A stretch of 64,000 nucleotides of DNA from positions 62,001-126,000 of the forward strand of contig NZ_CP058529.1 of assembly GCF_013401515.1 (NCBI RefSeq), in the 5' to 3' direction. Both the position numbers and the translations under genes were made by a program. Source of the DNA: Halorarum halophilum (lineage in GTDB: Archaea; Halobacteriota; Halobacteria; Halobacteriales; Haloferacaceae). This document shows, in pieces, positions 9,419 through 24,552 of this stretch. The notes below the pieces were generated by a model that was given only the letters and a program-made list of their open reading frames with translations, had not been told where the DNA came from and did no database searches. The stretch's first letter is position 1. Each line of letters opens with the position of its first letter.

Positions 9419-10405
9419 TCACTTCGCCTCGGGCCGTCTCGGTTCGTCTTCCCGACTCGTCTCTCGTTCCGGTACTGAGTCGTGATTCCGTCCACTGTCG
9501 TTCGCCTCAATACGGTCGAGCGTCTCCCGGTGGAGGGTGACGATGAGATCGGAGAGCACACCGAAGATGAGTAGTTGGACGCCGAAGATTAGCGAGACCC
9601 CCGAAACGACTGCGAGCACTTCGTGGGAGACGCCGTAGATGAACCACTCGTAAGCGACGTAGCCCGCAATGATGATGCCGAACAGCCCCGAGAGAACGCC
9701 TGCGCTCCCGAAGTAGAATAGTGGGTTGGAGGTCTTCGCCTGTCGATAGATGGCCATGAGGATGATGCCGCCGTCCTTCACCGGGTGGAGGTTCGTGTTC
9801 GACCCGTTCGGGCGTGGCAGGTAGGTGATTGGCACGACGGCCGTCCGAACTCCGTGGCGCGCACACTCCACTGAGAGTTCCGTCTCGATGCCGAACCCGT
9901 CGGCCGAGAGGGTGAGTCGGCGGAAGGAGTCGCGGGTGAACGCGCGGTAGCCCGAGAGGATGTCGCCGAAGTCCTCGCGGTGGATGAAGCCGAACAGCCA
10001 GTTGAAGGTCCTATTGCCGATTCGGTTGAACCCCGTCATGGCGTCCTCGTGCATGTCGGCGAATCGGTCGCCGACGACGTGTTCGGCCCGGCCCTCGAAG
10101 AGGGGTTCGAGCATGGCGTCGGCGTCCTTCGCGCGGTACGTGCCGTCGGCGTCGGCCATGAGGACGTACTCTGTATCGACGTGGTCACGGACCGCCTCTC
10201 GAATCGCCTGGCCCTTGCCCGTGCCCCTCTGGATGACGACGCGTGCGCCGGCTTCTTCGGCGAGTTTGCGTGTTCGGTCGGTAGAGTCGCCGTCCGCGAC
10301 GAGGACGTTCGAGAAGCCGTGCTCGCGGAAGTCCCGTACGACGTCGCCGACGGTCTCGGCCTCGTTGTAGGCGGGGAGGAGTACGGTGACGGCGTCCCTG
10401 TTCAT
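9419..10405 (-). CDS. aglJ: AglJ-type dolichol-phosphate hexosyltransferase
   Basis: Family 2 glycosyltransferase that in Haloferax adds the first sugar to dolichol phosphate for S-layer N-glycosylation. The 328-residue protein has an N-terminal GT-A domain (VTVLLPAYNEAETVGDVV, residues 6-23), the nucleotide-sugar/metal DxD motif MADADGTY at 83-90, and FGDILSGYRAFTRDSF typical of DPM1/AglJ-like enzymes. Two membrane segments follow near residues 235-285, then a charged cytosolic tail (RETSREDEPRRPEAK). The start at 10405 was chosen over a longer frame because GTTAAC lies about 27 bases upstream. It stands at the left end of the glycosylation region, as in Haloferax. Confidence 0.88.
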   Translation of the reverse strand: MNRDAVTVLLPAYNEAETVGDVVRDFREHGFSNVLVADGDSTDRTRKLAEEAGARVVIQRGTGKGQAIREAVRDHVDTEYVLMADADGTYRAKDADAMLEPLFEGRAEHVVGDRFADMHEDAMTGFNRIGNRTFNWLFGFIHREDFGDILSGYRAFTRDSFRRLTLSADGFGIETELSVECARHGVRTAVVPITYLPRPNGSNTNLHPVKDGGIILMAIYRQAKTSNPLFYFGSAGVLSGLFGIIIAGYVAYEWFIYGVSHEVLAVVSGVSLIFGVQLLIFGVLSDLIVTLHRETLDRIEANDSGRNHDSVPERETSREDEPRRPEAK

Positions 10406-11981
10406 TAGTGGGTTGGTCAGATGGATGGCGGTTAACACCTTCGGGAGTGGGTCGAGTCGGTCGCCCGCTCCCTGGATAGATTGCGACCGGGGTCTCATTC
10501 GAGGGTGCGTGCAACGGGAGGGCAGGTCGATGCTGTCGCGGCATGCCCGCCGTCGGTCCGCCTTCGAGAACGGGGCGCGAGCAGCGCAGGTCATCGGTGG
10601 ACGCTCGCGTCCGTTGCCTGGCTGTTCGACCGCCTGACGACACCAGCGACTTCTCATCCCGTTCGCCCCCGGTCACCATCCGCTCGGTTCCGAGTTCTGT
10701 CGCGAATCAAGCAATAACATCGAGGCGATCGACGCCACATGCGCGGCGCTGAGGCTACCCCCACGTGCGTCACCGTGGATAACCCTCCCGCCGCTCGGCC
10801 ACTGGACGAACCGGTTCGGAAGGTACACACCCGTATTCTCCCGCAGTAACCACTCTCCCTATCGATGTACTGGTTTGCTCGGTTTCGATCGGCTCTCCAC
10901 TAACGTGGTGGCAGAGCAGGCTGGTGAATTCTGTACGGAGCGTGCCTGAACTGTCCGGATTCGGTTCGGCAAACCGTCGTTGGTCACCCACTATGGACAC
11001 ACGATACGAGTGAAATCCGCCGTGTACCTGGGGTGAGACGGTCGATCGCTGAATCGCCGATTCGGCTTGGAACCGAGTCTGTCTCGGGCCCCTCACACAT
11101 CCGTGGGCGAATTCACTGGATTGGGGTCCTCTCGACGTGATATTGCGTCCAGCGTGGTGCTAGCTCTTCGGCGAATTCGGTGATACTGCATCCGGCGATT
11201 TGACTCGCGAGCGGGCTCTGTACCCCCGATATCCGGGGTGGAGCGCTCGTCGTTGGTGGATCGATCGTGGCGAGACGCGGGGAAATCTGTAGATACACAC
11301 CCTCTCGACGCATATTCGGGTGGAGAACCGGTTCATACATCAGTTCCTTGTCCGGGCCTCTACCCGAATTCGTAGCGTACACGGCGTCACGGGAGTATAC
11401 ACTGCGGATACTGGTCCCTGTACGTTTTGCAGGCTAGGTTCCCATTTCCCCATAGACCTCCGAATTCACTCGCAATTTAGCCTGTATCCATGATGTACAT
11501 CTATCTGAGGAATCATCCGTTAGAGCGACACAGTGGTAGGCGGGTAGCGAGCGTATCCATTATTACCATTTCTGTCTTTCCACATCCGGACCCAACGGAG
11601 TCCCAACCGTTGCGAGTCGGCAGCCAACTTCGTACATAGTCCGATACTCATACAGAGGTTCAAGCAGAGGTGGAAGCCAGAGCGAATGCCGCCTGCAATT
11701 AATACATGGATTTACTTCATATCGAAATGGTCACAACCGACTCTAATTCCTTTCAAATAATAAATGTTTGACTGGCTCTGCGGAGCAGATAACATGACAA
11801 TCTCGATTGGAGTGCTGAATAATCAATCATCATTATACCTGCATATTTCTCGGGCGATTTTATCTCTTCACTACGACGCCACTGCATGCACTTTTCCCCC
11901 AAGGACAGGGCCATGAGACTTGGTGATTACCGAAACCTTCAATCGTGGCCACTGTAATCAGAAGTAGGAGAAAATTGAACG
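10406..11981. other. Gene-free, AT-rich boundary of the glycosylation island
   Basis: Nearly 1.6 kb with no convincing gene. The first part (to about 11,100) is moderately GC-rich; the right part is strikingly AT-rich for this genome. The line at 11,701-11,760 has 19 G/C in 60, whereas 24,421-24,480 has 44 in 60. Short open frames on the minus strand at 10,770-11,096 and 11,113-11,382 lack family motifs and normal haloarchaeal codon bias. No inverted terminal repeats or transposase motifs were recognised. It may be the decayed remains of lost glycan genes or an old insertion. Confidence 0.6.
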
Positions 11982-13361
11982 ATGACTCAGAGTCCTTCGA
12001 TTGCCGTCGTCGTACTCGATACGCTTCGCAAGGACGCGTTCGACGAGGCATTCGACTGGCTTCCAGGGTTGCGCTTTGAGAACGCCTGGTCGACGAGTCA
12101 CTGGACAGTTCCGGTTCATGCATCTCTATTCGCGGGGAAGTACGCTAGTGATCTAGGCGTCCACGTGGGAAATCAGTATCTCGATTGCCCGGAGCCAGTA
12201 CTCGCTGAACAGCTCGCGGACGCAGGTTACACGACTCGTGCGTTCTCGTGTAATCCGAATATCTCGAAACCGTTTGCATTCGACCGTGGGTTTGACGAGT
12301 TCCACGGAAGCTGGCGGCTCCGTGGTCTCGAGGAGAACGTCTTCGACTGGCAGTCGTTCATCGCCGAGACACGCGGCGATGGGATAAGGAGGTATCTTGA
12401 AGCACTTTGGCAATGTATTCACGAGGACTGTGCGACCTGGCCATCCATAAAGCGGGGATTTCGACTCAAACTCTACTCGCTCACCCCAAGTGCGACCGCA
12501 CATGTGGATGATGGCGCGTGTGAAGCTCTCGACTACATCCGCCGAGCAGAATTCGACCGTCCTGAGTTTCTCTTCGTCAATTTGATGGAGGCACATGGCC
12601 CTTACACACCCCCAGAGGAGTACATCACGACTGGATCGCGAGAGGAGGTCGTCGAGCGGACCACGTACAATGGACTAGTGGCGACTGTGGCCGATAGACC
12701 TCCGAATGATGCCGAATACCTCCGCCGGACGTACGACGATGCAGTTCGCTACCTCTCGGATATCTACCGAGATATGTTCCAAGAGTTACGGGCGTCGTTC
12801 GATTATGTCATTACGCTCTCCGACCACGGTGAGCTATTTGGTGAGCACGATGCTTGGCAGCACGCCTACGGCGTCTACCCGGAACTTACGCATGTCCCAC
12901 TCGTCATCTCGGGTGATGGCATCCCAGACGAATCGTTCCCGGAGACAGTCAGCTTGATTGATGTCCACAGTACGGTTCGCTCGCTTACCGGTCTCGACGC
13001 GAACTCCTGTGGAACGAGCTTGGTCGAAGTCGACGATTCGGAGAAGCTGACGGTTACGCCGCCCGACAGCTCGTACTTTACGGAGTATCACGGCGTAAAC
13101 CCATTAAACAGGGCCGCAGTGGTAGAAGCCGGCTTCGACCCATCACCGTTCGATGAACAGTTGTACGGCGTGAAGTCGCCAACGACTCCGTATGCCTACG
13201 AAACTCTCGATGGCGTCCAATCCTCCGCGGACGGCGATCCTGCGACAGCCGCAGATACGATCAAGCGCCATCGGTCACAAGCAACGATTCGGGTCGTTGA
13301 GGACGCAGGTGAAGTTTCAGACGTCGTTCGTCGACGACTCGAAGAGCTCGGATACGCATGA
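11982..13361 (+). CDS. Sulfatase/alkaline-phosphatase-superfamily protein 1
   Basis: A 459-residue cytosolic-looking hydrolase or transferase. The metal site appears complete: Asp13 in VVVLDTLRKD, a Thr nucleophile at about residue 42 in SHWTVPVHASLFAG (the place of Cys/Ser in true sulfatases), Asp281-His282 in LSDHGELFGEHD, and His294 in QHAYG. The family cleaves or transfers sulfate, phosphate or phospho-sugar esters. With a Thr nucleophile and no formylglycine motif, phospho-transfer or phosphatase chemistry on a glycan intermediate is as likely as desulfation. No signal peptide or membrane helix. First of three plus-strand genes in the island; GC is lower than in housekeeping genes. Confidence 0.8.
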   Translation: MTQSPSIAVVVLDTLRKDAFDEAFDWLPGLRFENAWSTSHWTVPVHASLFAGKYASDLGVHVGNQYLDCPEPVLAEQLADAGYTTRAFSCNPNISKPFAFDRGFDEFHGSWRLRGLEENVFDWQSFIAETRGDGIRRYLEALWQCIHEDCATWPSIKRGFRLKLYSLTPSATAHVDDGACEALDYIRRAEFDRPEFLFVNLMEAHGPYTPPEEYITTGSREEVVERTTYNGLVATVADRPPNDAEYLRRTYDDAVRYLSDIYRDMFQELRASFDYVITLSDHGELFGEHDAWQHAYGVYPELTHVPLVISGDGIPDESFPETVSLIDVHSTVRSLTGLDANSCGTSLVEVDDSEKLTVTPPDSSYFTEYHGVNPLNRAAVVEAGFDPSPFDEQLYGVKSPTTPYAYETLDGVQSSADGDPATAADTIKRHRSQATIRVVEDAGEVSDVVRRRLEELGYA

Positions 13362-13395
13362 ATTACTACACCCTTCCAGAAGTACAGCGAGTGGA

Positions 13396-14328
13396 ATGAC
13401 GTTTGCTAACTGGATCGAGTCGACGCGCGAACAGATCGCACAGGATGGCTGGGACGGCGTCAAAGAGAGCATCTACGAACTTCGACTGGGGGCACTGCGT
13501 CGGCTCGAACGGTTTGCCGACCCTGGTACCAACGTGTTCGATCACGAATGGGACGTGCTCTTGATCCTCGACGGGTGCCGGGTTGACGCGATGGCGGAAG
13601 TAGCCGACGAGTATGAGTTCCTCGACGATCCGGGTTCGCACCGATCCGTTGGATCGGCGTCCTACCAGTGGATGGAGCGGACCTTCACCGACGAGTACGC
13701 CGATGAGATGGCACGGACTGCCCACGTCACGGCCAACCCGTTTACCGACGAGTTCTGCGACCCTGCGGAGTGGGCGCTCCTCGACGAGGTCTGGCGGAAT
13801 GCCTGGAACGAAGATGTCGGCATCGTTCCAGCCCGGAGCGTGACCGACGGGGCGATTCGCGCGGCGAGGGAGCGAGACGACGAGTTTGACCGCCTGCTGG
13901 TCCACTACATGCAGCCACACTTCCCGAGCGTGCCAGAACCGATGGGCAGTGGCACACGCTTGAACGAGTGGATTGACGGACGTGAGATGGCGTGGCAAGG
14001 GCTGCGCAGAGGTCGATTCACTGAGCAGGAGGTTTGGAACGCTTACGTCGCCAATCTCAGGTACGTTCTCAACGACGTGGCAGTCCTCCTCGAAAACTTG
14101 GATGCGGAAAAGGTGGTGCTCACAGCAGACCATGGAAACGCGAAGGGGGAGTGGGGCGTCTACGGTCATCCAAACGTCGCCATTAACGTACTGCGGGAAG
14201 TACCGTGGTACGTGACGACGGCGATTGACGAGGATTCCTACGAACCGAACCAGCGGGTCGATTCAGGAGCCGAAGAAGATGTGTCAGTCGCGGACCGCCT
14301 CCAAGCACTCGGTTACAGCGATAACTGA
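13396..14328 (+). CDS. Alkaline-phosphatase-superfamily protein 2 (haloarchaeal glycan-island type)
   Basis: A 310-residue protein with the outline of the sulfatase/AlkP fold in a shorter version. DVLLILDGCRVDAM carries metal ligand Asp59, SVGSASYQWMERTF is a likely nucleophile region, and TADHGNAKGEWGVYGHP carries Asp245-His246 and His258. The N-terminal 50 residues are helical and amphipathic (WIESTREQIAQDGWDGVKES). No export signal is seen. ATG 13396 was chosen because the upstream open frame overlaps the previous gene. It is separated by 34 bases from the sulfatase-like gene before it and by two bases from the glycosyltransferase after it, so it is probably cotranscribed. Confidence 0.75.
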   Translation: MTFANWIESTREQIAQDGWDGVKESIYELRLGALRRLERFADPGTNVFDHEWDVLLILDGCRVDAMAEVADEYEFLDDPGSHRSVGSASYQWMERTFTDEYADEMARTAHVTANPFTDEFCDPAEWALLDEVWRNAWNEDVGIVPARSVTDGAIRAARERDDEFDRLLVHYMQPHFPSVPEPMGSGTRLNEWIDGREMAWQGLRRGRFTEQEVWNAYVANLRYVLNDVAVLLENLDAEKVVLTADHGNAKGEWGVYGHPNVAINVLREVPWYVTTAIDEDSYEPNQRVDSGAEEDVSVADRLQALGYSDN

Positions 14329-14330
14329 GG

Positions 14331-15287
14331 ATGACGGACCTTCCGGACGTCGACCTGTCTAATTTAGAGCGGAACGACGATGAGACTCTCGTCTCCGCTA
14401 TCGTCCCCACGTTTGGGGACGCCGACCTTCTCTCACCCGGCCTACAGAGCATTGCCAACCAAACGTATGGAAACGTAGAGATAATCATAGTCGACAGCAG
14501 CGGTGTTGGATGGTTAGAGGACCTAGCGGCTGATACTGAAGGTATCGTTTACGTCTATCAGGAGCCGAAGGGACTAGCAGCGGCTCGAAACCGCGGAATA
14601 GAGGCAGCCTCCGGTGAGGTGATCGCTTTCCTTGACGCAGACGACCGCTGGTACCCGGAGAAGTTGGAGCGTCAGATGGCCGAGATGGACGCAGGTGGTG
14701 CGGACGTAGTGTACAGCGATGTCTGCGTCCTGACCGATGATGGGGAGAGACGTCGGCTGTCTGCGCTTCCCATCTCTGATCCTGACAATCATCACATCGA
14801 GTTCCTCTACAAGGGAGGAGTGCCGATACTGTCGGTGGTCGTCCGGCGGGAATGCTTCGAACAGAATCGCTTCAATGAGGACCTTCCGGCCGTTGAGGAT
14901 CGTAACCTCTTGACCCAACTGTTCGCGGTATTCGAACCGGCTAGAGTTGCAGAACCGCTTGCCGTGTACCGTCAACGACAGGGGTCTATGAGTTCAGATG
15001 CGGCGACCATGTACGAGGCCGAGATGATCTCGCTAGAACATCTTGCTGACGAGTTTCCGTCAGTGGCGAACTGCTATGAGGACTTAGTAGCCCTAGCTGA
15101 GTACAAATACGGCAAACGCTTGCTGCGGAGCGGCAGCCCTGGCGAGGCACGCAGACACTTCATCACCGCGACGTTGGCGGGCCACCGCGACTATCGATTG
15201 GCAGTATTGCTGGCGATTTCGATCCTTCCAGTTGACCATCGGCGATCTCTCTGGCATCTTGAGCGCGTCCAAGAGTATCTGAGTTAG
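14331..15287 (+). CDS. Glycosyltransferase family 2
   Basis: A 318-residue GT-A fold transferase. VSAIVPTFGDADLLSPGLQS at 21-40 is the nucleotide-binding start, LAAARNRGI at 82-90 follows, and the DxD metal/sugar-nucleotide motif FLDADDRW is at 100-107. EDRNLLTQLF in the second half fits the ED catalytic-base region of family 2. No membrane helix near the end, so it probably acts at the cytosolic face on a lipid-linked glycan. Starts two bases after the AlkP-like gene; its last four bases overlap the end of the convergent flippase gene. Sugar specificity cannot be read from the sequence. Confidence 0.85.
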   Translation: MTDLPDVDLSNLERNDDETLVSAIVPTFGDADLLSPGLQSIANQTYGNVEIIIVDSSGVGWLEDLAADTEGIVYVYQEPKGLAAARNRGIEAASGEVIAFLDADDRWYPEKLERQMAEMDAGGADVVYSDVCVLTDDGERRRLSALPISDPDNHHIEFLYKGGVPILSVVVRRECFEQNRFNEDLPAVEDRNLLTQLFAVFEPARVAEPLAVYRQRQGSMSSDAATMYEAEMISLEHLADEFPSVANCYEDLVALAEYKYGKRLLRSGSPGEARRHFITATLAGHRDYRLAVLLAISILPVDHRRSLWHLERVQEYLS

Positions 15288-16693
15288 GCTTCTAGTGGGA
15301 GATTTCTCCGGACGGTGGCTCGGAAGTCCCCGGACAGTACAACCAATAACAGCAGGTAGCTCACTGCGCCGACGCCGACGAGTGCCACTCCAACGAGCAC
15401 CCGATTTGGGAGAACCAGCCGTCCGGCATAGACAACGACTGCCATTCCGGCGGCTGCTATCCATTGTTTCGATATCTCGATAAGAGGAAGGTCGACGGAC
15501 ACTAGATGGGTGAACGACCGGTAGGCAAATACTGCCGTGACAACGGCGGAGAGGGCAGTCGCTATCGCAGCACCGGTCCAACCGAACGCAGCAATCAAGC
15601 TCACGTTGAGGCCCACGTTCGCGATGACGAATACCGCGTTCACACGGAACGCGAGATCGGGACGATCCAGCCCATTAAGACCGTTCAGGAACTGGTTGCC
15701 GTACTCGTACACCAAGCGGGCAACGACCAGCACAACAAGTACGGTCGTGGCCTGTTGGAACTCATTGCCATATACTCGCAGGACGAGGTCCCCGACGAGC
15801 AGACTGCCGACCAATCCTGGGATGAGAAACAGACCGGTGTAGGAGAGGCCATCAGCGACGAAGCTTCCGACGCGATCCGGATCGCCTTCGCTTGCGGCGC
15901 GGCTCATCTCCGGAAACAACGCTTGGGCGATGGCCACGCTGAAGATGGCGAGCATCGATGCGAGGTTCCAGGCCACCTCGTAGTAACCGATGTACGACGA
16001 AGTGACGAACAGTCCGAGAACGACGGTATCCATCGAAGAGAACGCTCGCGAACTGAACTTTCCGAGCCAGGCGTAGCGTGCATAAGAGGTGATTCCTTTG
16101 AGGTGACGCCGTTCAGGTAGTTCGATGCCAACCGAGAGATAGACGAGGCCGACAAGGGTGGCGACGATGCCGGCGATGACGTAGCCGGCCAACAATCCCA
16201 CGAGTCCGAGGCCGAAGAATACAGCGAGGATTTGAAGCACGCTTCGGACGGTGCGGTCCACGGGCTGGAGTAATGCGGCGACGTGAACCTTGTGTTGTCC
16301 ACTGAGGGCGGCGGTGACGAACTTGAATGCCATCCCAGCCAATAACAGGCCCAGAATGTATACTGCGACGGGCTCACCGATGTAGCTGTTAACCTGCTTG
16401 CTAAAGGTTAACACAACGACGGAGAGGACGACGAACGCCGCAAGGACTAATCCGGCTCCTGTGGTCAGGTATGGATCGGATTCCCCTGTCTCGCTAAGCC
16501 GCTTCGTCACCGCGTTCTCGATGCCGAGGATACCGATAACCTGGAGCCAGATGACCAGCGCGATGACGAGCATGTATTCCCCGAACACCGCCGACCCGAG
16601 ATTCCGGGTGATGTAGATCGTCGCTATGAAGCCGACGACCGAGGCAGAGAATTGGGAGACGAACCCCGTGAACGACGTTTGACCGATCCTCAT
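15284..16693 (-). CDS. Polysaccharide flippase (Wzx/MOP superfamily, AglR-like)
   Basis: A 469-residue integral membrane protein with about 12-14 hydrophobic segments (for example VVGFIATIYITRNLGSAVFG near the start and VAVYILGLLLAGMAFKFVTA). The early ITRNLGSAVFGEY pattern is characteristic of the RfbX/Wzx family. It should move the dolichol-linked glycan from the cytosolic to the outer face, where AglB uses it. AglR has been given this kind of role in Haloferax; equivalence is by family, not proven. Last gene of the minus-strand cassette AglG-like, GT4, sulfatase-like, flippase. Confidence 0.88.
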   Translation of the reverse strand: MRIGQTSFTGFVSQFSASVVGFIATIYITRNLGSAVFGEYMLVIALVIWLQVIGILGIENAVTKRLSETGESDPYLTTGAGLVLAAFVVLSVVVLTFSKQVNSYIGEPVAVYILGLLLAGMAFKFVTAALSGQHKVHVAALLQPVDRTVRSVLQILAVFFGLGLVGLLAGYVIAGIVATLVGLVYLSVGIELPERRHLKGITSYARYAWLGKFSSRAFSSMDTVVLGLFVTSSYIGYYEVAWNLASMLAIFSVAIAQALFPEMSRAASEGDPDRVGSFVADGLSYTGLFLIPGLVGSLLVGDLVLRVYGNEFQQATTVLVVLVVARLVYEYGNQFLNGLNGLDRPDLAFRVNAVFVIANVGLNVSLIAAFGWTGAAIATALSAVVTAVFAYRSFTHLVSVDLPLIEISKQWIAAAGMAVVVYAGRLVLPNRVLVGVALVGVGAVSYLLLLVVLSGDFRATVRRNLPLEA

Positions 16694-16736
16694 AATGTTC
16701 TAAAGCAGTGCGCCCACCCCGACCTTTTCATAATAA

Positions 16737-18089
16737 TCACTCTCGGTAGCCGAGTTGCCTAAGGCGTTTTTTGACCCCCTCTTCCATCTCAACTTCCCCG
16801 ACTCCTACGTCGGTTACCTCGACCTCGCGTTCGTGTTCGCGGATGACCGCTTGACATCGGTCGGCAATGGACTCGTGCTTGCTAATGACGTTCTCTGTCT
16901 CCATAGGGTCATCAGGCAGGTAGAAGAGTTCCTCCTCGTTCCCACGGCGGATGTACTTCCACTCGTGGTCCCGATAGGCAAATCGTTTCTCACCGGTATT
17001 CGTGCTTTTCCAGTCTGCGATGTGGACGTTGCGGTCCCAGTCTCCGTCAAACAGCCGTTGCAAGCTTTCACCGTGGAAATTCTCCGGGGCGTTTAGTCCG
17101 GCGCTGTCGACCAACGTCGGTGAGACGTCGAGGAGGCCGACGAGGTCATTGTGCTCACCGTCGTGTTCGCCATCGTCGAAGACGAGCGGCACGTGGATGG
17201 CCTCATCGTAGAAGCGGTTTTGATGGCTAAATCTACCATGTTCGGTGAACTCCTCCCCGTGGTCCGAGGTAACCATCACGTTCACGTCTCCCCACACATC
17301 TCGCGCACTTTCTACGAGCCGTCCGATTTCCGTGTCAGAGAAGCGAATTTCAGCGTCATAAAGGTCGATGATGTCCGAAAGCTCTTCGCTGGTCACTTCG
17401 CCAGGCTCTTCTAACATTTTCCTCCGGAGCCTGATCGCCCGCCGCTTGTCGATCGGCTCGTCACGAAATGCCAGCTGCTGTTCCACTGGTGGCACATACG
17501 GGTGGTGGACGTCCATGTAATGAACCCAGAGGAAGTTGGGTTGCTCGTTATCTGCCTCTTGAATCCACTCCACGCCCATGTCCGTAATTTCGTCGGCGGT
17601 GACGTACGCCGAGCCGATGTTCGCACCGGCCTGACGCTCAGCGACCTCGAATGCACGGGCGAGTGTCTGGTACACGACACCGTCCTCGTTGAGGCGGTCC
17701 TTCACCGCTTGCCGAAGGCGGGCTGTCGGCGATGGATGCGTTTTCGAGTCGAAGAAGGTGTCGAATCCCCGGTCGTAGCCGAAATCAGCACTTAAATAGA
17801 GGTTGGAGTGGAAGCCAGCAGTTCGATATCCAGCGTCATGAAAAACCTCGGAAACGACCGTCTGTTCGTCTGAAACTCTCTCGTACCCACCGTACATCGT
17901 GGCGTACGTGGAGGTCAAAATGGAGGGGAAGGACGGCCGGGTGCTGCAAGCGTGCGCGAAGGCATTGGTAAATGTCGTCCCTTGGGCAGCGTACTTGTCG
18001 ATGTTCGGAGTCGTATCGCGTTCATAGCCCAAATGGCTCACGTGGTCAGCACGGAGGGAGTCAATGGTGATTAGAAGTGTATCTTGCAT
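16737..18089 (-). CDS. Sulfatase-family protein 3
   Basis: A 450-residue sulfatase-superfamily enzyme, the most classical of the three in this island. LLITIDSLRADHVSHLGYER carries metal ligand Asp10, ACSTRPSFPSILTSTY at 47-62 holds the nucleophile region (CSTRPS rather than the C/S-x-P-x-R of formylglycine sulfatases), and VTSDHGEEFTEHGRFSH supplies the second metal site. ENFHGESLQRLFDGDWDR and the C-terminal substrate domain are typical. No signal peptide, so it would act in the cytosol, perhaps transferring or removing a charged ester on the glycan. It lies between the GT4 gene and the flippase gene in the same direction. Confidence 0.83.
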   Translation of the reverse strand: MQDTLLITIDSLRADHVSHLGYERDTTPNIDKYAAQGTTFTNAFAHACSTRPSFPSILTSTYATMYGGYERVSDEQTVVSEVFHDAGYRTAGFHSNLYLSADFGYDRGFDTFFDSKTHPSPTARLRQAVKDRLNEDGVVYQTLARAFEVAERQAGANIGSAYVTADEITDMGVEWIQEADNEQPNFLWVHYMDVHHPYVPPVEQQLAFRDEPIDKRRAIRLRRKMLEEPGEVTSEELSDIIDLYDAEIRFSDTEIGRLVESARDVWGDVNVMVTSDHGEEFTEHGRFSHQNRFYDEAIHVPLVFDDGEHDGEHNDLVGLLDVSPTLVDSAGLNAPENFHGESLQRLFDGDWDRNVHIADWKSTNTGEKRFAYRDHEWKYIRRGNEEELFYLPDDPMETENVISKHESIADRCQAVIREHEREVEVTDVGVGEVEMEEGVKKRLRQLGYRE

Positions 18090-18110
18090 ACGTTTCGGTC
18101 CTAACTGGGA

Positions 18111-19100
18111 TTATTTGACGCTTGTGATGGCGCGACGGTAATCCGCTGTTATTTCTTGCCAGTCGAACTGGCGGACGAGACCCCGCAGTAAGTCACGATC
18201 CATCAGCCCCGCTCGCTGAATGGCTTCTGCCACTTCTTCAGGGTCTGATTCGGTATACACGAGATGGTCTCCAAACCGCTCCACGGCCCGACCTTCGATC
18301 TGGACGATCGGAAGGCCAGTAGCACCGTACTCGAGTACCTTCAACGTATGAGGGTCGTCAACGAGCGATACGCCCACATCAGCGAGGACGACGTAGCCTG
18401 GAACCTTTTCGTGAGGAACGGTACCGAGGTAGTGGACATTACTGCGCGCGTCGTCAGCCTGCAGCACCTGTTCGTGCAGACTCCCATCGCCGAGAATAAC
18501 CAGCGACCAGTTGTCGAGGTATTCCATCGCCGTGAGTAGTTCCTCAATGTGATAAATTGGTTCCAGACCGCCGACGTAGATGGCGACGTTCTCGCACAAC
18601 TGCTGGCCTTCAAGGTGTTCCTGCGCGGCCGTCACCGCCTCTGAATCGGGATCAGCAAAACGCTCATACTCCACTCCGAGGTCGGTCTTAGTCATCACTT
18701 TTGCGTATCGTTCCACTCGGTTCCGCTCCTCGCCGTAGACGTATAGTACGTGGTCGGCGATATGGAATGCGAAGTTCTCCAGCAGGCGTACGACGACGGC
18801 GAGCCATCGGAGGTGGGTGTCGGTGAACTGTTGGATAGGGTCAACGTGATCGACGACGAGCGGTGTGCCAGTTACGGATTTGACGAGCGCGCCGGCGATG
18901 GCGCCCGCACGTGTAGTACCGACGACGACATCGTACTCGTCGGCGTCGCGAAGCGACTGTAGTAGCGTGTAAGGGGTCGTTCCTCGCAAGGTAACTGCGA
19001 AACCATCGGCTTCAAGGTGGTCGGCGATTCGCTGACGGCCGACGCTGATATTCGCTGGCTTGTCCGGTGTGAGCCACAACACTTGGAGGTGAGCGTTCAC
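18111..19100 (-). CDS. Glycosyltransferase family 4
   Basis: A 329-residue GT-B fold transferase. The N-terminal half holds a nucleotide-free Rossmann-like region (YDVVVGTTRAGAIAGALV, TPLVVDHVDP). The C-terminal half has the donor site: VAIYVGGLEPIYHIEELLTA, WSLVILGDGSLHEQV and the E-x7-E-like HTLKVLEYGATGLPIV. GTG at 19098-19100 was chosen because it overlaps the TGA of the upstream aglG-like gene, showing translational coupling; a longer frame exists only as a shadow. Probably adds one sugar of the lipid-linked glycan. Confidence 0.85.
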   Translation of the reverse strand: MNAHLQVLWLTPDKPANISVGRQRIADHLEADGFAVTLRGTTPYTLLQSLRDADEYDVVVGTTRAGAIAGALVKSVTGTPLVVDHVDPIQQFTDTHLRWLAVVVRLLENFAFHIADHVLYVYGEERNRVERYAKVMTKTDLGVEYERFADPDSEAVTAAQEHLEGQQLCENVAIYVGGLEPIYHIEELLTAMEYLDNWSLVILGDGSLHEQVLQADDARSNVHYLGTVPHEKVPGYVVLADVGVSLVDDPHTLKVLEYGATGLPIVQIEGRAVERFGDHLVYTESDPEEVAEAIQRAGLMDRDLLRGLVRQFDWQEITADYRRAITSVK

Positions 19101-20029
19101 GCGAAACCACCTCGGTATTTCGTAAAGCCGTACAGGTAGCCAAAGCCCACGAGTGCGGTCAACACCCAAAGACAGAAGAACCTCTCAGCTTCTGTCGCTG
19201 ATGGCTGGCGAACTAATCGTCGGCCTCGCTTAGGGCCAAACCCAAAGAGTAGTTTCCCGAGGAACTCCCCTTCCTCCCCGCCCGAATCCTCCACGAACGT
19301 CTCCATCGCCCGCTTCGAGTACCCCTGCCAAAAAGCCCGATCTAGCAACCACCAGAGATCAGTCCGATACTCGAACACCTTGTGTTCCACCTCCGCCTCC
19401 GGGACGTACCACACCCCCTCGCCGTACACCTCGCGCATACGCGCCGCAAGTTCCGTCTCGCCGCCCTGGAGGTTCGCCTCCCCCTTTCGCCCGCCGATCG
19501 CCGTATCGAAGCCCCCCAACTCCAGAAAGACGTCCCGCCGGAACGAGATGTTCGACCCGAACGTGTTCCGGACCTCGCCCGCCCCGTCAGCGAACCCGCG
19601 ATGGGTCACCCCCACAAGCCAGTCGAACTCCGAGGGGAGATAGGACGGCCGCCCGGCGACCCACCGGCCGGTCATCTTGCCGCCGACGGCGATCCGATCG
19701 TGCTCCTCGTACGCCTCGACGAGGAGCTCCACCCACTCCCCATCGGGAACGGCGTCGTCGTCGATGAACGCCACTACGTCGCCCGTCGCCAGCCTCGCCC
19801 CGGTGTTTCTGCTCTCCAACAGGCCGACGTTCTCCTCGTTACAGTGGAGAACGACGTCCTCGCTCCCCCCGTATTCCGCCTCGACGCGTTCGAACACCGC
19901 GTCGGTTCCGTCGACCACGACGACCAACTCCACGTCCCCGTACGTCTGGTCGAGGACGGCGTCCGCTGCCTCCCGGAAGTCGTCGTACATCGACTCGGCG
20001 TACGTACAGAGGACGACGGAGACTCGCAC
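19097..20029 (-). CDS. aglG: AglG-like glycosyltransferase (family 2)
   Basis: A 310-residue family 2 transferase with VSVVLCTYAESMYDDFREAA at 3-22, FIDDDAVPDGEW near residue 90 (DDD metal motif), and the stretch HRGFADGAGEVRNTFGSNIS that I recognise from haloarchaeal AglG, the hexuronic acid transferase acting on glucosyl-dolichyl phosphate. RAFWQGYSKRAM near residue 235 also fits. A hydrophobic segment near the C-terminus (WVLTALVGFGYLYGF) would anchor it to the membrane. It is divergent from aglB with 107 bases between starts, and first in the four-gene minus-strand cassette. The AglG identity rests on remembered similarity; the GT2 assignment is certain. Confidence 0.78.
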   Translation of the reverse strand: MRVSVVLCTYAESMYDDFREAADAVLDQTYGDVELVVVVDGTDAVFERVEAEYGGSEDVVLHCNEENVGLLESRNTGARLATGDVVAFIDDDAVPDGEWVELLVEAYEEHDRIAVGGKMTGRWVAGRPSYLPSEFDWLVGVTHRGFADGAGEVRNTFGSNISFRRDVFLELGGFDTAIGGRKGEANLQGGETELAARMREVYGEGVWYVPEAEVEHKVFEYRTDLWWLLDRAFWQGYSKRAMETFVEDSGGEEGEFLGKLLFGFGPKRGRRLVRQPSATEAERFFCLWVLTALVGFGYLYGFTKYRGGFA

Positions 20030-20104
20030 ATCCGGGTATCTGATGCGACGGTCATACCTGTTTTCCTCTCGCGCGCCGCGCCACTGCGAGCCCTACTTCA
20101 GAAG

Positions 20105-20112
20105 GCTTATTC
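20105..20112 (+). promoter_or_regulatory. aglB TATA box (leaderless start)
   Basis: GCTTATTC lies about 28 bases before the aglB ATG, the spacing at which haloarchaeal transcripts begin on the start codon. The same 107-base gap must also hold the minus-strand aglG-like promoter. Confidence 0.5.
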
Positions 20113-20136
20113 ACGCGTTCCGAATCCATCCCCGTA

Positions 20137-23100
20137 ATGAGTAACGGCAGCGATAGTGACGCGAGCGCCACGGGTTCACCCTCCGTCCCTGGCCTCGAGT
20201 ACGACTTCGAGGGGAAGTCGGTTCTCGACATCCTCCGGGACCTCTACCACGTCCCGGTGCTCCTCGCGGTCTTCGCGACGATGTTGTGGATCCGCCTCCA
20301 GTCGTACGACCGCTTCACGCAGGGCGGCGAGATCTACTTCAGCGGCAACGACGCGTGGTACCACCTCCGCGAGACGATCTACGCGGTCCAGCACTGGCCG
20401 TTCACGATGCCGTTCGACCCGTGGACGAACTTTCCGACCGGCACGGCGTCGGGCGGGCAGTTCGGGAGCCTGTTCGACCAGCTCGTCGCGCTGGCCGCGC
20501 TGATTCTCGGGCTCGGCGACCCCTCCTCCGAACTCATCGCACGAACGCTCCTCGTCTCCCCGGCCGTGTTCGGCGCGCTGACCGTCATTCCGGCATACCT
20601 CATCGGCAAACGGCTCGGCGGGCGCATCGGCGGCCTGTTCGCGTCCGTCGTCCTCCTGCTCCTACCCGGCACCTTCCTCCGACGGACGCTCGTCGGCTTC
20701 GCCGATCACAACGGGGCCGAGCCGTTCTTCCAGGGCCTCGCGGTCGTCGCCATCATGGTCGCACTCGCGGTAGCACAGCGGGACCGCCCGATCTGGGAAC
20801 TCGTCGAATCCCGCGACTGGGACGCGCTCCGCGAACCGGCAAAGTGGAGCGCGCTCGCGGGCGTCGCGATGGGCCTCTACCTCTGGGTATGGCCGCCGGG
20901 AATCCTCCTCGTCGGCGTGTTCGCCGTCTATGTGACCCTCCAGTCGGTGAGCGATTACGTCGGCGGTCGGTCCCCGGACCACGTCGCGTTCGTGGCTATC
21001 GTGTCGATGGCGACCACGCTGCTGTTCGCCGTCATCAGCTTCGACGAAGCGTCATTCAGCCCTTCGTCGATCAGCCTCCTCCACCTCTCGTTCATCCCCA
21101 CCGTCGCAGTGGGTGCCGCCGGGCTGGCCTGGCTCGCTCGCCAGTTCGATGCTCGCGAGTTCTCCGACGACCGGCTCACCGCGTTCGGCTTCCCGGTGGC
21201 GGTTTCCGCACTGGGGGCCGTCGCGATTCTCGCGGTGGTCCTGATCCCCGTCGAGCCGTTCTCGACCATCAGCAACAACCTCCTCCGCTTCGTCGGCTTC
21301 AGCGCCGGCGCGGCCAGTCGCACCATCGGCGAGGCCCAGCCGTTCCTCTCGTCGGGGCTCTCCCGGTACTACTCCGACACCGGCGTCGTCCTCGCCGAGT
21401 ACGGCTTCGCGTTCGTCACAGCCCTCCTCGCGGCGGTCTGGATGCTCGCCAAGCCGCTCTGGCAGCGGGGTGAGGACGACGACTACCTCCTGCTCGGCGG
21501 TGCCACGCTCCTCGTCCTGTTCATGTTCGTCGGACGCGGGCTGTACAACGACTTCGCCGGGGCACTCGGCGTCAACCCGCAGTTGCTCGGACTCGCCATC
21601 GTCGGCGCGCTCGTGTTCGCCGCCGTCATCCGCGTCCGGTACGACGCCGAACACCTGTTCGCGTTCGTCTGGGTCGCCTTCATCACGGCCGCGGCGTTCA
21701 CCCAGGTCCGGTTCAACTACTACCTCGCGGTCGGGGTCGCGGCGTTCAACGCCTACTTCATCGCCGAGTTCCTGCGCGCCATCGACGTCGACCTCTCGCG
21801 GGAGTCGGTCCCCGACGTGGAGACCTACCAGCTGATCGCGGTCGCGTTGGCGGTGATGGTCGTGCTCGTCCCCGTCCTGATGCTCCCGCTCTCGCTCGGG
21901 AACTCGGGCAGCGCCTCCATCGACCGTACCAGCACGGCGTGGCAGACCGGCAACAGTACCGGCCCCGGGTCGGTCGTCGTGTGGGACCAGAGCCTCGAGT
22001 GGATGCAGAACAATACGCCACGGGAGGGAACCCTCGGCGGCGCGAACAACGGGGAGCAACTCGACTACTACGGGAAGTACGACCGTCCGCAGGACGGGGA
22101 CTTCGACTACCCGGACGGCTCCTACGGCGTCCAGTCCTGGTGGGACTACGGTCACTACATCACGGTCCAGGGCGAGCGCATCCCGAACGCCAACCCGTTC
22201 CAGCAGGGCGCGACCGAGGCGGCGAACTACCTCCTCGCGCCGAACGAGTCGCAGGCCGAAGCGGTCCTCGAGCGGAACAGCGAGGACGACGCCACTACCC
22301 GCTACGTGATGGTCGACTGGGAGATGGTAACGGAGACGTCCAAGCTCAGCGCCCCCGCCGTGTTCTACGACGAGGGGAACCTCTCGGCGAACGACCTCTA
22401 CTCGCGAGACACGCCAGTGCTCCGCGAGACCCAGCGGGGGTATGGGGTCGCGTTCTACGACCACCCGCAACGGTACTACGACAGCCAGATGGTCCGGCTG
22501 TACAAGTACCACGGTAGCCGCGCCGAGCCGACGGTGAACACCGGGTTCGGCGAGGCCGTCATCGTCTTCGACTACGACCCCGTCCCGCAGGCACCCGATT
22601 ACAAGGCCGTGCCGCAGGGTGAGAACGCCACGGCAATCCGAACGTTCCCCAACATGACCGCCGCCGAGCAGTTCGTCGAGGAGGACGGGACGGCACAGAT
22701 CGGCGGCGTGGGTGACTACCCGCGCGAGCCCGTGCCGGCCCTCCAGCACTACCGCCTCGTCGACGCGAGCGAGACCTCGGCGTACGCGTCCCAGCAGTAC
22801 CAGCAGTCGGTGCTGCGGGAGTCGCAGTCGCTCGGCCTCCGGCCCGGACTGCTCCAGAAGACGTCGCCCAACTGGGTGAAGACGTTCGAGCGCGTCCCGG
22901 GCGCGACCGTCGAGGGCTCGGGTGCAGACCCGAACGAGACGGTCACCGCGACCGTGCAGATGAAGATGGCGCCCGGCGAGAACGCCTCGACGTTCACCTA
23001 CGAGCAGCAGACGACGGCCGACGAGAACGGGAACTTCGAGTTCGCCCTCCCGTACTCGACGACCGGATACGACGAGTACGGCCCGGAGAACGGCTACACC

Positions 23101-23502
23101 GACGTGGGCGTTCGGGCGGACGGCCCGTACAGCGTCACCGGCGAGGTGACGTCGAACGACAGCGCCTACCTGCTCCGCGACCAGGCGACGCTGAACGTCA
23201 GCGAGGGCGACGTGAACGGCGCCGAGGACGGAACCGCCTCGGTGACCCTCCAGGAGGAGGTGCTCCAGGAACCCGGCGGTGCGAACGAATCTAACGGGAA
23301 CGAAACCAGCGGTAACGAGACCGCTGGGAACGAGACGGCTGGAAACCAGACTGCCGGAAACGAAACCCTGGGTAACGGAACCGCGAGCAACGAGACCGGC
23401 GGCAACGAGTCCGCCTCGATCGCGGCGTCGGGTCCGCCGACCCACAGCGGAGCAAGCGCGCCCGCCGTTCGCGCGGGCGTCCGTACCGCTGCACGCCCCT
23501 AG
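20137..23502 (+). CDS. aglB: Archaeal oligosaccharyltransferase AglB
   Basis: Transfers the glycan from its dolichol carrier to Asn of N-x-S/T sequons outside the cell, mainly on the S-layer. The 1121-residue STT3-family protein has the first-loop metal/catalytic motif GNDAWYHLRE (Asp72), about 13 membrane helices up to roughly residue 590, the second motif region GFADHNGAEPFFQG, and the sequon-binding WWDYG at 668-672. The extracellular part continues as beta-rich sequence to about 1045. Odd feature: residues 1050-1092 contain nine NxT/S sequons exactly five residues apart, followed by a short Ala/Pro-rich tail. The start is set by a TATA-like box about 28 bases upstream. The DUF368 gene begins at the base after its stop. 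Confidence 0.96.
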   Translation: MSNGSDSDASATGSPSVPGLEYDFEGKSVLDILRDLYHVPVLLAVFATMLWIRLQSYDRFTQGGEIYFSGNDAWYHLRETIYAVQHWPFTMPFDPWTNFPTGTASGGQFGSLFDQLVALAALILGLGDPSSELIARTLLVSPAVFGALTVIPAYLIGKRLGGRIGGLFASVVLLLLPGTFLRRTLVGFADHNGAEPFFQGLAVVAIMVALAVAQRDRPIWELVESRDWDALREPAKWSALAGVAMGLYLWVWPPGILLVGVFAVYVTLQSVSDYVGGRSPDHVAFVAIVSMATTLLFAVISFDEASFSPSSISLLHLSFIPTVAVGAAGLAWLARQFDAREFSDDRLTAFGFPVAVSALGAVAILAVVLIPVEPFSTISNNLLRFVGFSAGAASRTIGEAQPFLSSGLSRYYSDTGVVLAEYGFAFVTALLAAVWMLAKPLWQRGEDDDYLLLGGATLLVLFMFVGRGLYNDFAGALGVNPQLLGLAIVGALVFAAVIRVRYDAEHLFAFVWVAFITAAAFTQVRFNYYLAVGVAAFNAYFIAEFLRAIDVDLSRESVPDVETYQLIAVALAVMVVLVPVLMLPLSLGNSGSASIDRTSTAWQTGNSTGPGSVVVWDQSLEWMQNNTPREGTLGGANNGEQLDYYGKYDRPQDGDFDYPDGSYGVQSWWDYGHYITVQGERIPNANPFQQGATEAANYLLAPNESQAEAVLERNSEDDATTRYVMVDWEMVTETSKLSAPAVFYDEGNLSANDLYSRDTPVLRETQRGYGVAFYDHPQRYYDSQMVRLYKYHGSRAEPTVNTGFGEAVIVFDYDPVPQAPDYKAVPQGENATAIRTFPNMTAAEQFVEEDGTAQIGGVGDYPREPVPALQHYRLVDASETSAYASQQYQQSVLRESQSLGLRPGLLQKTSPNWVKTFERVPGATVEGSGADPNETVTATVQMKMAPGENASTFTYEQQTTADENGNFEFALPYSTTGYDEYGPENGYTDVGVRADGPYSVTGEVTSNDSAYLLRDQATLNVSEGDVNGAEDGTASVTLQEEVLQEPGGANESNGNETSGNETAGNETAGNQTAGNETLGNGTASNETGGNESASIAASGPPTHSGASAPAVRAGVRTAARP
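23284..23412 (+). repeat. 15-base-period tandem repeat encoding nine N-glycosylation sequons in AglB
   Basis: A degenerate 15-base unit encodes Asn-x-Thr/Ser with Asn at residues 1050, 1055, 1060, 1065, 1070, 1075, 1080, 1085 and 1090 of AglB (NES, NET, NET, NET, NQT, NET, NGT, NET, NES). Codon wobble differs between units, so it is maintained at protein level and not a recent expansion. Confidence 0.9.
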
Positions 23503-24552
23503 ATGGCCCGTGACACTGCGGACGACGTGCCGGGCGACGCGACGGATACTGATGGGTACGGAACGACCGACGGGGTGACTGCCGACGCCGCCACCGGCGG
23601 GGTAGACGACGAGGATCCGGTCACGACGCTCGGCGTGTTCCTCCGGGGGCTCTGCATGGGGACTGCCGACGCCGTCCCGGGCGTCTCGGGCGGGACCATC
23701 GCGCTCATCACGGGCATCTACGACCGGCTGATCGCGGCCGTCACGTCGTTCGACGTGGAACTCGTTCGGCGCGCGCTCGGCGGGCTGACCGGGGACCGCG
23801 ACCGGTTCGCGGGCGCGTGGCGCGACGCGGACCTGACGTTCCTGCTGGTGCTCGGCACCGGCATCCTCACGGCGGTGCTCACCGTGACGCGCGTCCTCCA
23901 CGTCGCCATCAACACGCGGCCCGCGCCGACGTTCGGCTTCTTCTTCGGGCTCATCGCCGCGTCGGCGCTCGTCCTGTGGAGCGAACTCCACCTGAACTCG
24001 CGGCGGCGGGTCGTCGCCGGCCTCGTGGGCGCGGTGCTCGCATTCGTCGTCTCGGGCGAGGCGGGCGCGGCCCTGCCGAACTCCCCGGCGACGACCGCGT
24101 TCGCCGGCGCGTTCGCGGTGAGCGCGATGATCCTCCCGGGCATCTCTGGGTCGCTCGTACTCGTCATCCTCGGGCAGTACGAGCGCATGTCGGGCGCGCT
24201 GTCGGCGTTCCAGGACGCCCTGGTCGGGGTCGTTGGCGGCGCTGACCCGTCGACGCTCGCCGGGCCGGGGGTGACCGTGGTCTCGTTCATGGCCGGCGGC
24301 GTGGTCGGACTGCTGACGATCGCCCACCTGGTCCGCCGCGCGCTGGAGCGCGACCGGGCGACGACGATGACGTTCCTCGTCGGGCTCATCGTGGGCGCGC
24401 TCCGCGCGCCGGTCGCGAGCGCGGGGGCGAACCTCGCCGAACTCGGTCGCGGGTGGACGCCTGAGACCGTCGGGCTGTTCGCCGCCGCCGCCGTGGTCGG
24501 CGCGCTCGCCATCTTCGCCGTGGACCGTGCGGCGGGCGGCATCGAGCTGTGA
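23503..24552 (+). CDS. DUF368 membrane protein, probable polyprenyl-phosphate transporter (PopT family)
   Basis: A 349-residue protein with about 8-10 membrane segments. The DUF368 signature GLCMGTADAVPGVSGGTIALITGIYDRL is at about 48-75, and a second related GISGSLVLVILGQYERM near 210-226 shows the internal repeat. Bacterial DUF368 (PopT) proteins have been shown to return undecaprenyl phosphate across the membrane. Starting directly after the aglB stop, this one most likely recycles dolichyl phosphate released by AglB. The N-terminal 40 residues are acidic and Thr/Asp-rich, probably cytosolic. The transport role in archaea is inference. Confidence 0.88.
   Translation: MARDTADDVPGDATDTDGYGTTDGVTADAATGGVDDEDPVTTLGVFLRGLCMGTADAVPGVSGGTIALITGIYDRLIAAVTSFDVELVRRALGGLTGDRDRFAGAWRDADLTFLLVLGTGILTAVLTVTRVLHVAINTRPAPTFGFFFGLIAASALVLWSELHLNSRRRVVAGLVGAVLAFVVSGEAGAALPNSPATTAFAGAFAVSAMILPGISGSLVLVILGQYERMSGALSAFQDALVGVVGGADPSTLAGPGVTVVSFMAGGVVGLLTIAHLVRRALERDRATTMTFLVGLIVGALRAPVASAGANLAELGRGWTPETVGLFAAAAVVGALAIFAVDRAAGGIEL

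Follow-up and report, generated by a model that had tools for sequence, protein, structure and literature searches.

A variable aglJ–aglB island in Halorarum halophilum as a candidate locus for a sulfated N-glycan

In the 64,000-nucleotide stretch of the Halorarum halophilum genome analysed here (the window), the region from aglJ to aglB appears to be an exchangeable island that would assemble a four-sugar, glucuronate-containing N-glycan bearing a charged group, most likely sulfate, added by proteins of the AlkP superfamily. We consider this reading, drawn by analogy with characterised haloarchaeal pathways, to be reasonably probable. Islands of this kind decide which sugars cover the haloarchaeal cell, and hence virus attachment and mating are probably affected by them.

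Gene content and composition of the island

A sequence-only reading of this DNA had placed conserved N-glycosylation genes at both ends, and the profile searches bear this out. Specifically, AglJ and AglB, together with AglG, exceed the curated NCBIfam cutoffs, while DUF368 was recovered as PF04018 and, as AlkP1, AlkP3, the flippase, GT2 and GT4, exceeds its Pfam cutoff (Table 1). The arrangement is that of an aglB-anchored N-glycosylation island, with aglB (TIGR04154) accompanied by glycosyltransferases (NF041394, TIGR04182) and a flippase (PF01943), and AlkP superfamily proteins are encoded in the cluster (PF00884 for AlkP1 and AlkP3, a profile match for AlkP2). The predicted set of three AlkP-superfamily proteins, three glycosyltransferases (GT2, GT4 and AglG) and a flippase was found complete; the third glycosyltransferase, which had been counted within 11,982-19,100, exists as AglG, but its gene straddles the edge of that interval. 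In addition, the two convergent cassettes described in the same reading were confirmed: a plus cassette (AlkP1, AlkP2, GT2) and a minus cassette (flippase, AlkP3, GT4, AglG) meet tail to tail, with the ends of the GT2 and flippase genes overlapping by 4 bp.

Table 1. Features of the island (positions in the window)
Feature	Position	Strand	Assignment
aglJ	9419-10405	-	left border; TIGR04182 equivalog, 436 bits (cutoff 325)
non-coding low-GC stretch	10406-11981		1.58 kb, GC 0.556
AlkP1	11982-13361	+	AlkP-superfamily, PF00884 above Pfam cutoff
C-terminal L-x-x-L-G-Y of AlkP1	13343-13361		
AlkP2	13396-14328	+	short AlkP-superfamily protein, below every Pfam cutoff
C-terminal L-x-x-L-G-Y of AlkP2	14302-14328		
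GT2 glycosyltransferase	14331-15287	+	PF00535 2.9e-27; last gene of plus cassette
flippase-like membrane protein (AglR/Wzx/MurJ-like)	15284-16693	-	PF01943 5.2e-21
AlkP3	16737-18089	-	arylsulfatase-like type; PF00884 9.2e-44, SGSH_C
C-terminal L-x-x-L-G-Y of AlkP3	16737-16760		
GT4 glycosyltransferase	18111-19100 (start 19100 or 19169)	-	PF13692 6.6e-13
aglG	19097-20029	-	NF041394 equivalog, 504 bits (cutoff 440)
aglB, oligosaccharyltransferase	20137-23502	+	right border; TIGR04154, 881 bits (cutoff 450)
DUF368	23503-24552	+	PF04018 2.7e-63

Two of the start positions were corrected. The true start of aglJ lies at about 10405, because its relatives start at the corresponding Met, and the open reading frame reaching 10657 is over-extended; AlkP2 starts at 13396 instead of 13192. 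A geneless stretch of low GC separates aglJ from AlkP1. Searches of this gap for open reading frame homology, counterparts in the other islands read, Rfam families and repeats returned nothing, so that no decayed genes, RNA genes or repeats were detected in it; the stretch is possibly decayed or regulatory.

The lower GC claimed for the middle of the island was checked gene by gene, together with codon use, and found to hold. The six middle genes (AlkP1 to GT4) have GC3 values of 0.613-0.723 (z -5.7 to -8.8), compared to 0.928 +/- 0.036 for the 30 other genes of the window, and their codon-usage distances lie 4.2-6.9 s.d. above the mean of the same 30 genes. This GC3 shift far exceeds chance. 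The values of aglB (0.91, z -0.5) and DUF368 (0.93, z +0.1) are normal, and those of AglJ (0.83) and AglG (0.81) are intermediate.

Variability between fixed borders

Of 60 genomes, 59 yielded a location for aglB, and each of the 36 genomes searched for AglJ gave a match of that type. Besides the window island, 26 others were read, giving 27 surveyed islands; of the 26, Halobacterium contributed 13, and the remaining 13 come from the family of the window or from further families in its order. In the 19 islands fetched with both borders, the window's included, aglJ and aglB diverge, each pointing outward, and enclose an interval of 1.5 to 32 kb. The content of this interval is variable, and the gene set of the window is repeated in none of the 26 other islands. 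A common gene set in close relatives, which would speak against a variable N-glycosylation island as originally proposed, was therefore not found when the intervals were compared.

The contrast between borders and middle is clearest in the two genomes of the same genus, G001 and G002. Here aglJ, aglB and DUF368 are 76-87% identical to those of the window (85-87% for aglJ, 76-78% for aglB), whereas identity falls to 26-48% for the six middle genes, where these are present at all. Both islands hold an AlkP gene of each of the three types, as the window does, but they carry extra sugar-biosynthesis genes and longer intervals (20 and 32 kb; that of the window measures 9.5 kb). For AlkP1 and AlkP2 the closest relatives lie outside the genus. 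The best match of AlkP1, at 52% identity, occupies the corresponding slot in a genome of another family (G042), and that of AlkP2, at 55%, is a slot gene of another genus (G012), while the same-genus versions of these two proteins are only 26-35% identical; the flippase shares 42-44% identity with slot genes from other families. AlkP3 is 48% identical to the slot gene of G001, and GT4 34% identical to the G001 gene adjoining its aglG.

AglG behaves differently, being 76% identical in G001; on this value and its intermediate GC3 we assign it in part to the stable frame. The order of AglG, GT4 and AlkP3 beside aglB is also kept in G001, which argues for piecemeal change. As a separate observation, G002 (L063/L064) and contig C17 (L095) of the Halobacterium genome G097 share a colinear AlkP3-GT2-GT4-AlkP1-AlkP2-aglG stretch, a sign of between-family transfer. 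Relatives of the island were sought in viral contigs, where none were found.

AlkP proteins and the group they may transfer

The presence of three AlkP genes had been regarded as unusual, a view that the survey does not support. By profile search, 22 of the 27 islands have one or more AlkP genes in the slot, and the counts given here are lower bounds, as some of the fetched stretches end short of aglJ; all three types occur in five other islands (G001, G002, G126, G185 and G097), and the island of G012 holds six AlkP genes. AlkP genes are a standing part of these islands. This suggests that N-glycans carrying sulfate or another charged group are widespread among haloarchaea, beyond Halobacterium.

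The residues of the metal site are kept in AlkP1 (D13, D281-H282, H294) and AlkP3 (D10, D276-H277, H289). At the nucleophile position both proteins have Thr (T42 and T50, respectively), compared to the Cys or Ser that becomes formylglycine in sulfatases, and the maturation motif C/S-x-P-x-R is replaced by T42-V-P-V-H in AlkP1 and T50-R-P-S-F in AlkP3, in a register checked against PDB sequences. The His at the position of the motif Arg is invariant across the AlkP1 set, and AlkP3 has Phe there. Therefore, given the Thr nucleophile and the loss of the motif Arg, we conclude that AlkP1 and AlkP3 are not formylglycine sulfatases. Their Thr site is compatible with a transferase-type active site, and AlkP1 is a predicted sulfo- or phospho-transferase.

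The assignment of AlkP2 comes from profile comparison: the profile of its 15-member family matches those of AlkP3 and AlkP1 in hhalign at 99% probability (E 1e-19 and 9e-16, respectively). Its conserved residues are D59, H170, D245-H246 and H258, of which D59, D245-H246 and H258 are those expected at the metal site; a conserved Ser, either S84 or S87, probably serves as nucleophile. A conserved L-x-x-L-G-Y terminates all three AlkP types and their relatives, the Pfam-orphan AlkP2 family included. Structure prediction for AlkP2 was set aside, since models from a single sequence and from four sequences reached pLDDT 36 and 46 and the P-loop GTPase matches in the PDB (TM ~0.3) are meaningless. 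AlkP2 stands directly beside an AlkP gene of the same strand in 10 of 22 cases (the islands of the window genome, G002, G097, G019, G012 and G020 among them), which suggests that the two work as a pair; in Halobacterium genomes, members of the AlkP2 family are also found at a distance from aglB.

In the pathway that we propose, AglJ would load the first sugar, a hexose, onto dolichol phosphate, and AglG, as a glucuronosyltransferase, would add glucuronic acid as the second, both assignments being at equivalog level. GT4 and GT2 would extend the chain by a third and a fourth sugar, a total of four glycosyltransferases being in keeping with a tetrasaccharide. At least one AlkP protein may then move a charged group, most likely sulfate, to uronic acids of the lipid-linked glycan, in analogy with Agl30 and Agl31, after which the AglR-like flippase would bring the lipid with its glycan to the outer face and AglB, matched at equivalog or subfamily level, would transfer the glycan to S-layer asparagines. 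The DUF368 protein, a predicted polyprenyl-phosphate translocase, probably helps to recycle the lipid carrier. The genes aglF and aglM, for UDP-glucuronate supply, are absent from the aglJ–aglB interval.

The N-glycan is thus probably of the tetrasaccharide type, glucuronate-containing and sulfated, with sulfate as the best guess because AlkP proteins of the aglB cluster of Halobacterium salinarum sulfate the N-glycan. Specifically, Agl30 and Agl31, two AlkP-superfamily proteins of that cluster, were established in 2025 as N-glycan sulfotransferases through deletion, mass spectrometry and heterologous expression: deleting them lowers N-glycan sulfation, and expressing them in Haloferax volcanii causes it (PMC11980604). 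Agl30 and Agl31 are also neighbours by locus number.

As in LtaS and EptA, the AlkP proteins might transfer a phosphate-containing group (phosphate, phosphoglycerol or phosphoethanolamine) instead of sulfate, which we regard as unlikely. The Thr nucleophile with the D and D-H ligands, which we take to resemble the LtaS/EptA type, was counted in its favour; EptA-type chains occur among the PDB profile matches, and sulfate-activation enzymes were not found in the window genome. Sulfatases, however, outscore EptA in the PDB profiles; by eye, AlkP1, AlkP2 and AlkP3 show neither N-terminal membrane helices nor an LtaS/EptA-like membrane anchor, and the only haloarchaeal superfamily proteins of such a cluster to be tested act as glycan sulfotransferases (PMC11980604). 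It is equally improbable that the AlkP proteins are hydrolases trimming or recycling nucleotide-sugar or lipid-linked intermediates, with uronic acids as the sole charge of the glycan. Most characterised AlkP members are hydrolases, and deletion of the third Hbt. salinarum AlkP protein, VNG1063H, had no effect on sulfation (PMC11980604), which counts against fixing a role from superfamily membership alone; yet AlkP genes, often several, lie beside glycosyltransferases in at least 22 of the 27 variable islands, a pattern that fits glycan-specific modification better than housekeeping. Less probable again is that the middle genes build another surface glycan (exopolysaccharide or O-linked) and are merely located between aglJ and aglB. 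The AlkP2-family genes found away from aglB point in that direction; the frame of aglJ, aglG and aglB, the single flippase and the four glycosyltransferases argue against it, as does the precedent of Haloferax and Halobacterium, where the aglJ–aglB interval is the cluster for the N-glycan (PMC5867893, PMC4335974).

For the sulfated N-glycan that we favour, a supply of PAPS is not evident from the genes of the window genome, and the same gap appears in G097. ATP sulfurylase (PF01747, CysD) was found in none of 14 haloarchaeal genomes (the window genome, G097 and 12 others); in the window genome, which is 99.85% complete, PF01747 gave no match and the best CysD match, at about 32 bits, fell far below the cutoff of 397. 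A clear APS kinase is present in one of the 14, G002 (156 bits), with weak matches only in the other 13 (about 25 bits in the window genome and likewise in G097). The G002 enzyme (L120:6799-9123; G002:C1 ~134.8-137.1 kb) is fused to a cytidylyltransferase-like domain. Its gene lies in a plasmid-like part of this same-genus genome, close to a gene for a P-loop sulfotransferase. Either haloarchaea activate sulfate with enzymes that the profiles miss, or the AlkP proteins draw on a different donor, or they transfer a group other than sulfate. Since the gap extends over 14 genomes although N-glycan sulfation is proven in Hbt. salinarum, the AlkP proteins of the window island and its relatives might be sulfotransferases using a donor other than canonically made PAPS, to which we give a small chance. 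We found no paper settling the question of the haloarchaeal sulfate donor, and PMC11980604 does not mention PAPS. If the absence of sulfate-activation genes is confirmed, the origin of the sulfate becomes a directly testable question.

Comparison with the Haloferax and Halobacterium clusters

The clusters of H. volcanii, H. gibbonsii and Haloferax isolates are likewise bordered by aglJ and anchored by aglB, with variable content and gene exchange between fixed borders (PMC5867893). Their gene content differs from that of the window, and the H. volcanii pentasaccharide is unsulfated. The conserved borders and variable middle of the window island fit gene exchange of the kind described in Haloferax, by which the six middle genes may have been acquired.

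The VNG1048-1068 cluster of Hbt. salinarum, whose pathway uses four glycosyltransferases to make a di-sulfated tetrasaccharide (PMC8674786, PMC11980604), shares with the window aglJ, an AglG-type glycosyltransferase, a flippase, three AlkP genes, four glycosyltransferases and aglB. Only the Hbt. salinarum cluster has aglM, aglF, the AglQ/Agl32 epimerase and the methyltransferase AglP, and the gene order differs. The likeness to Agl30/Agl31 (VNG1056C/VNG1057C) is one of superfamily and cluster context. G097, with 100% bacteriorhodopsin identity to Hbt. salinarum, was rejected as a source of Agl30/Agl31, because its gene order differs from that of NRC-1 (PMC4335974) and because large chromosomal replacements, in which glycosyltransferases abound, distinguish strains of Hbt. 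salinarum from one another (PMC10264941); an NRC-1-like order was sought in 11 further Halobacterium islands and found in none.

In view of these systems, the suggestion of the sequence-only reading that the charged glycan had not been described before does not stand. Archaea have been known for decades to make N-glycans that contain uronate and are sulfated, and AlkP sulfotransferases encoded in an aglB cluster were published in 2025. In conclusion, the window island is a new example, and such islands and such enzymes are already known from related species.
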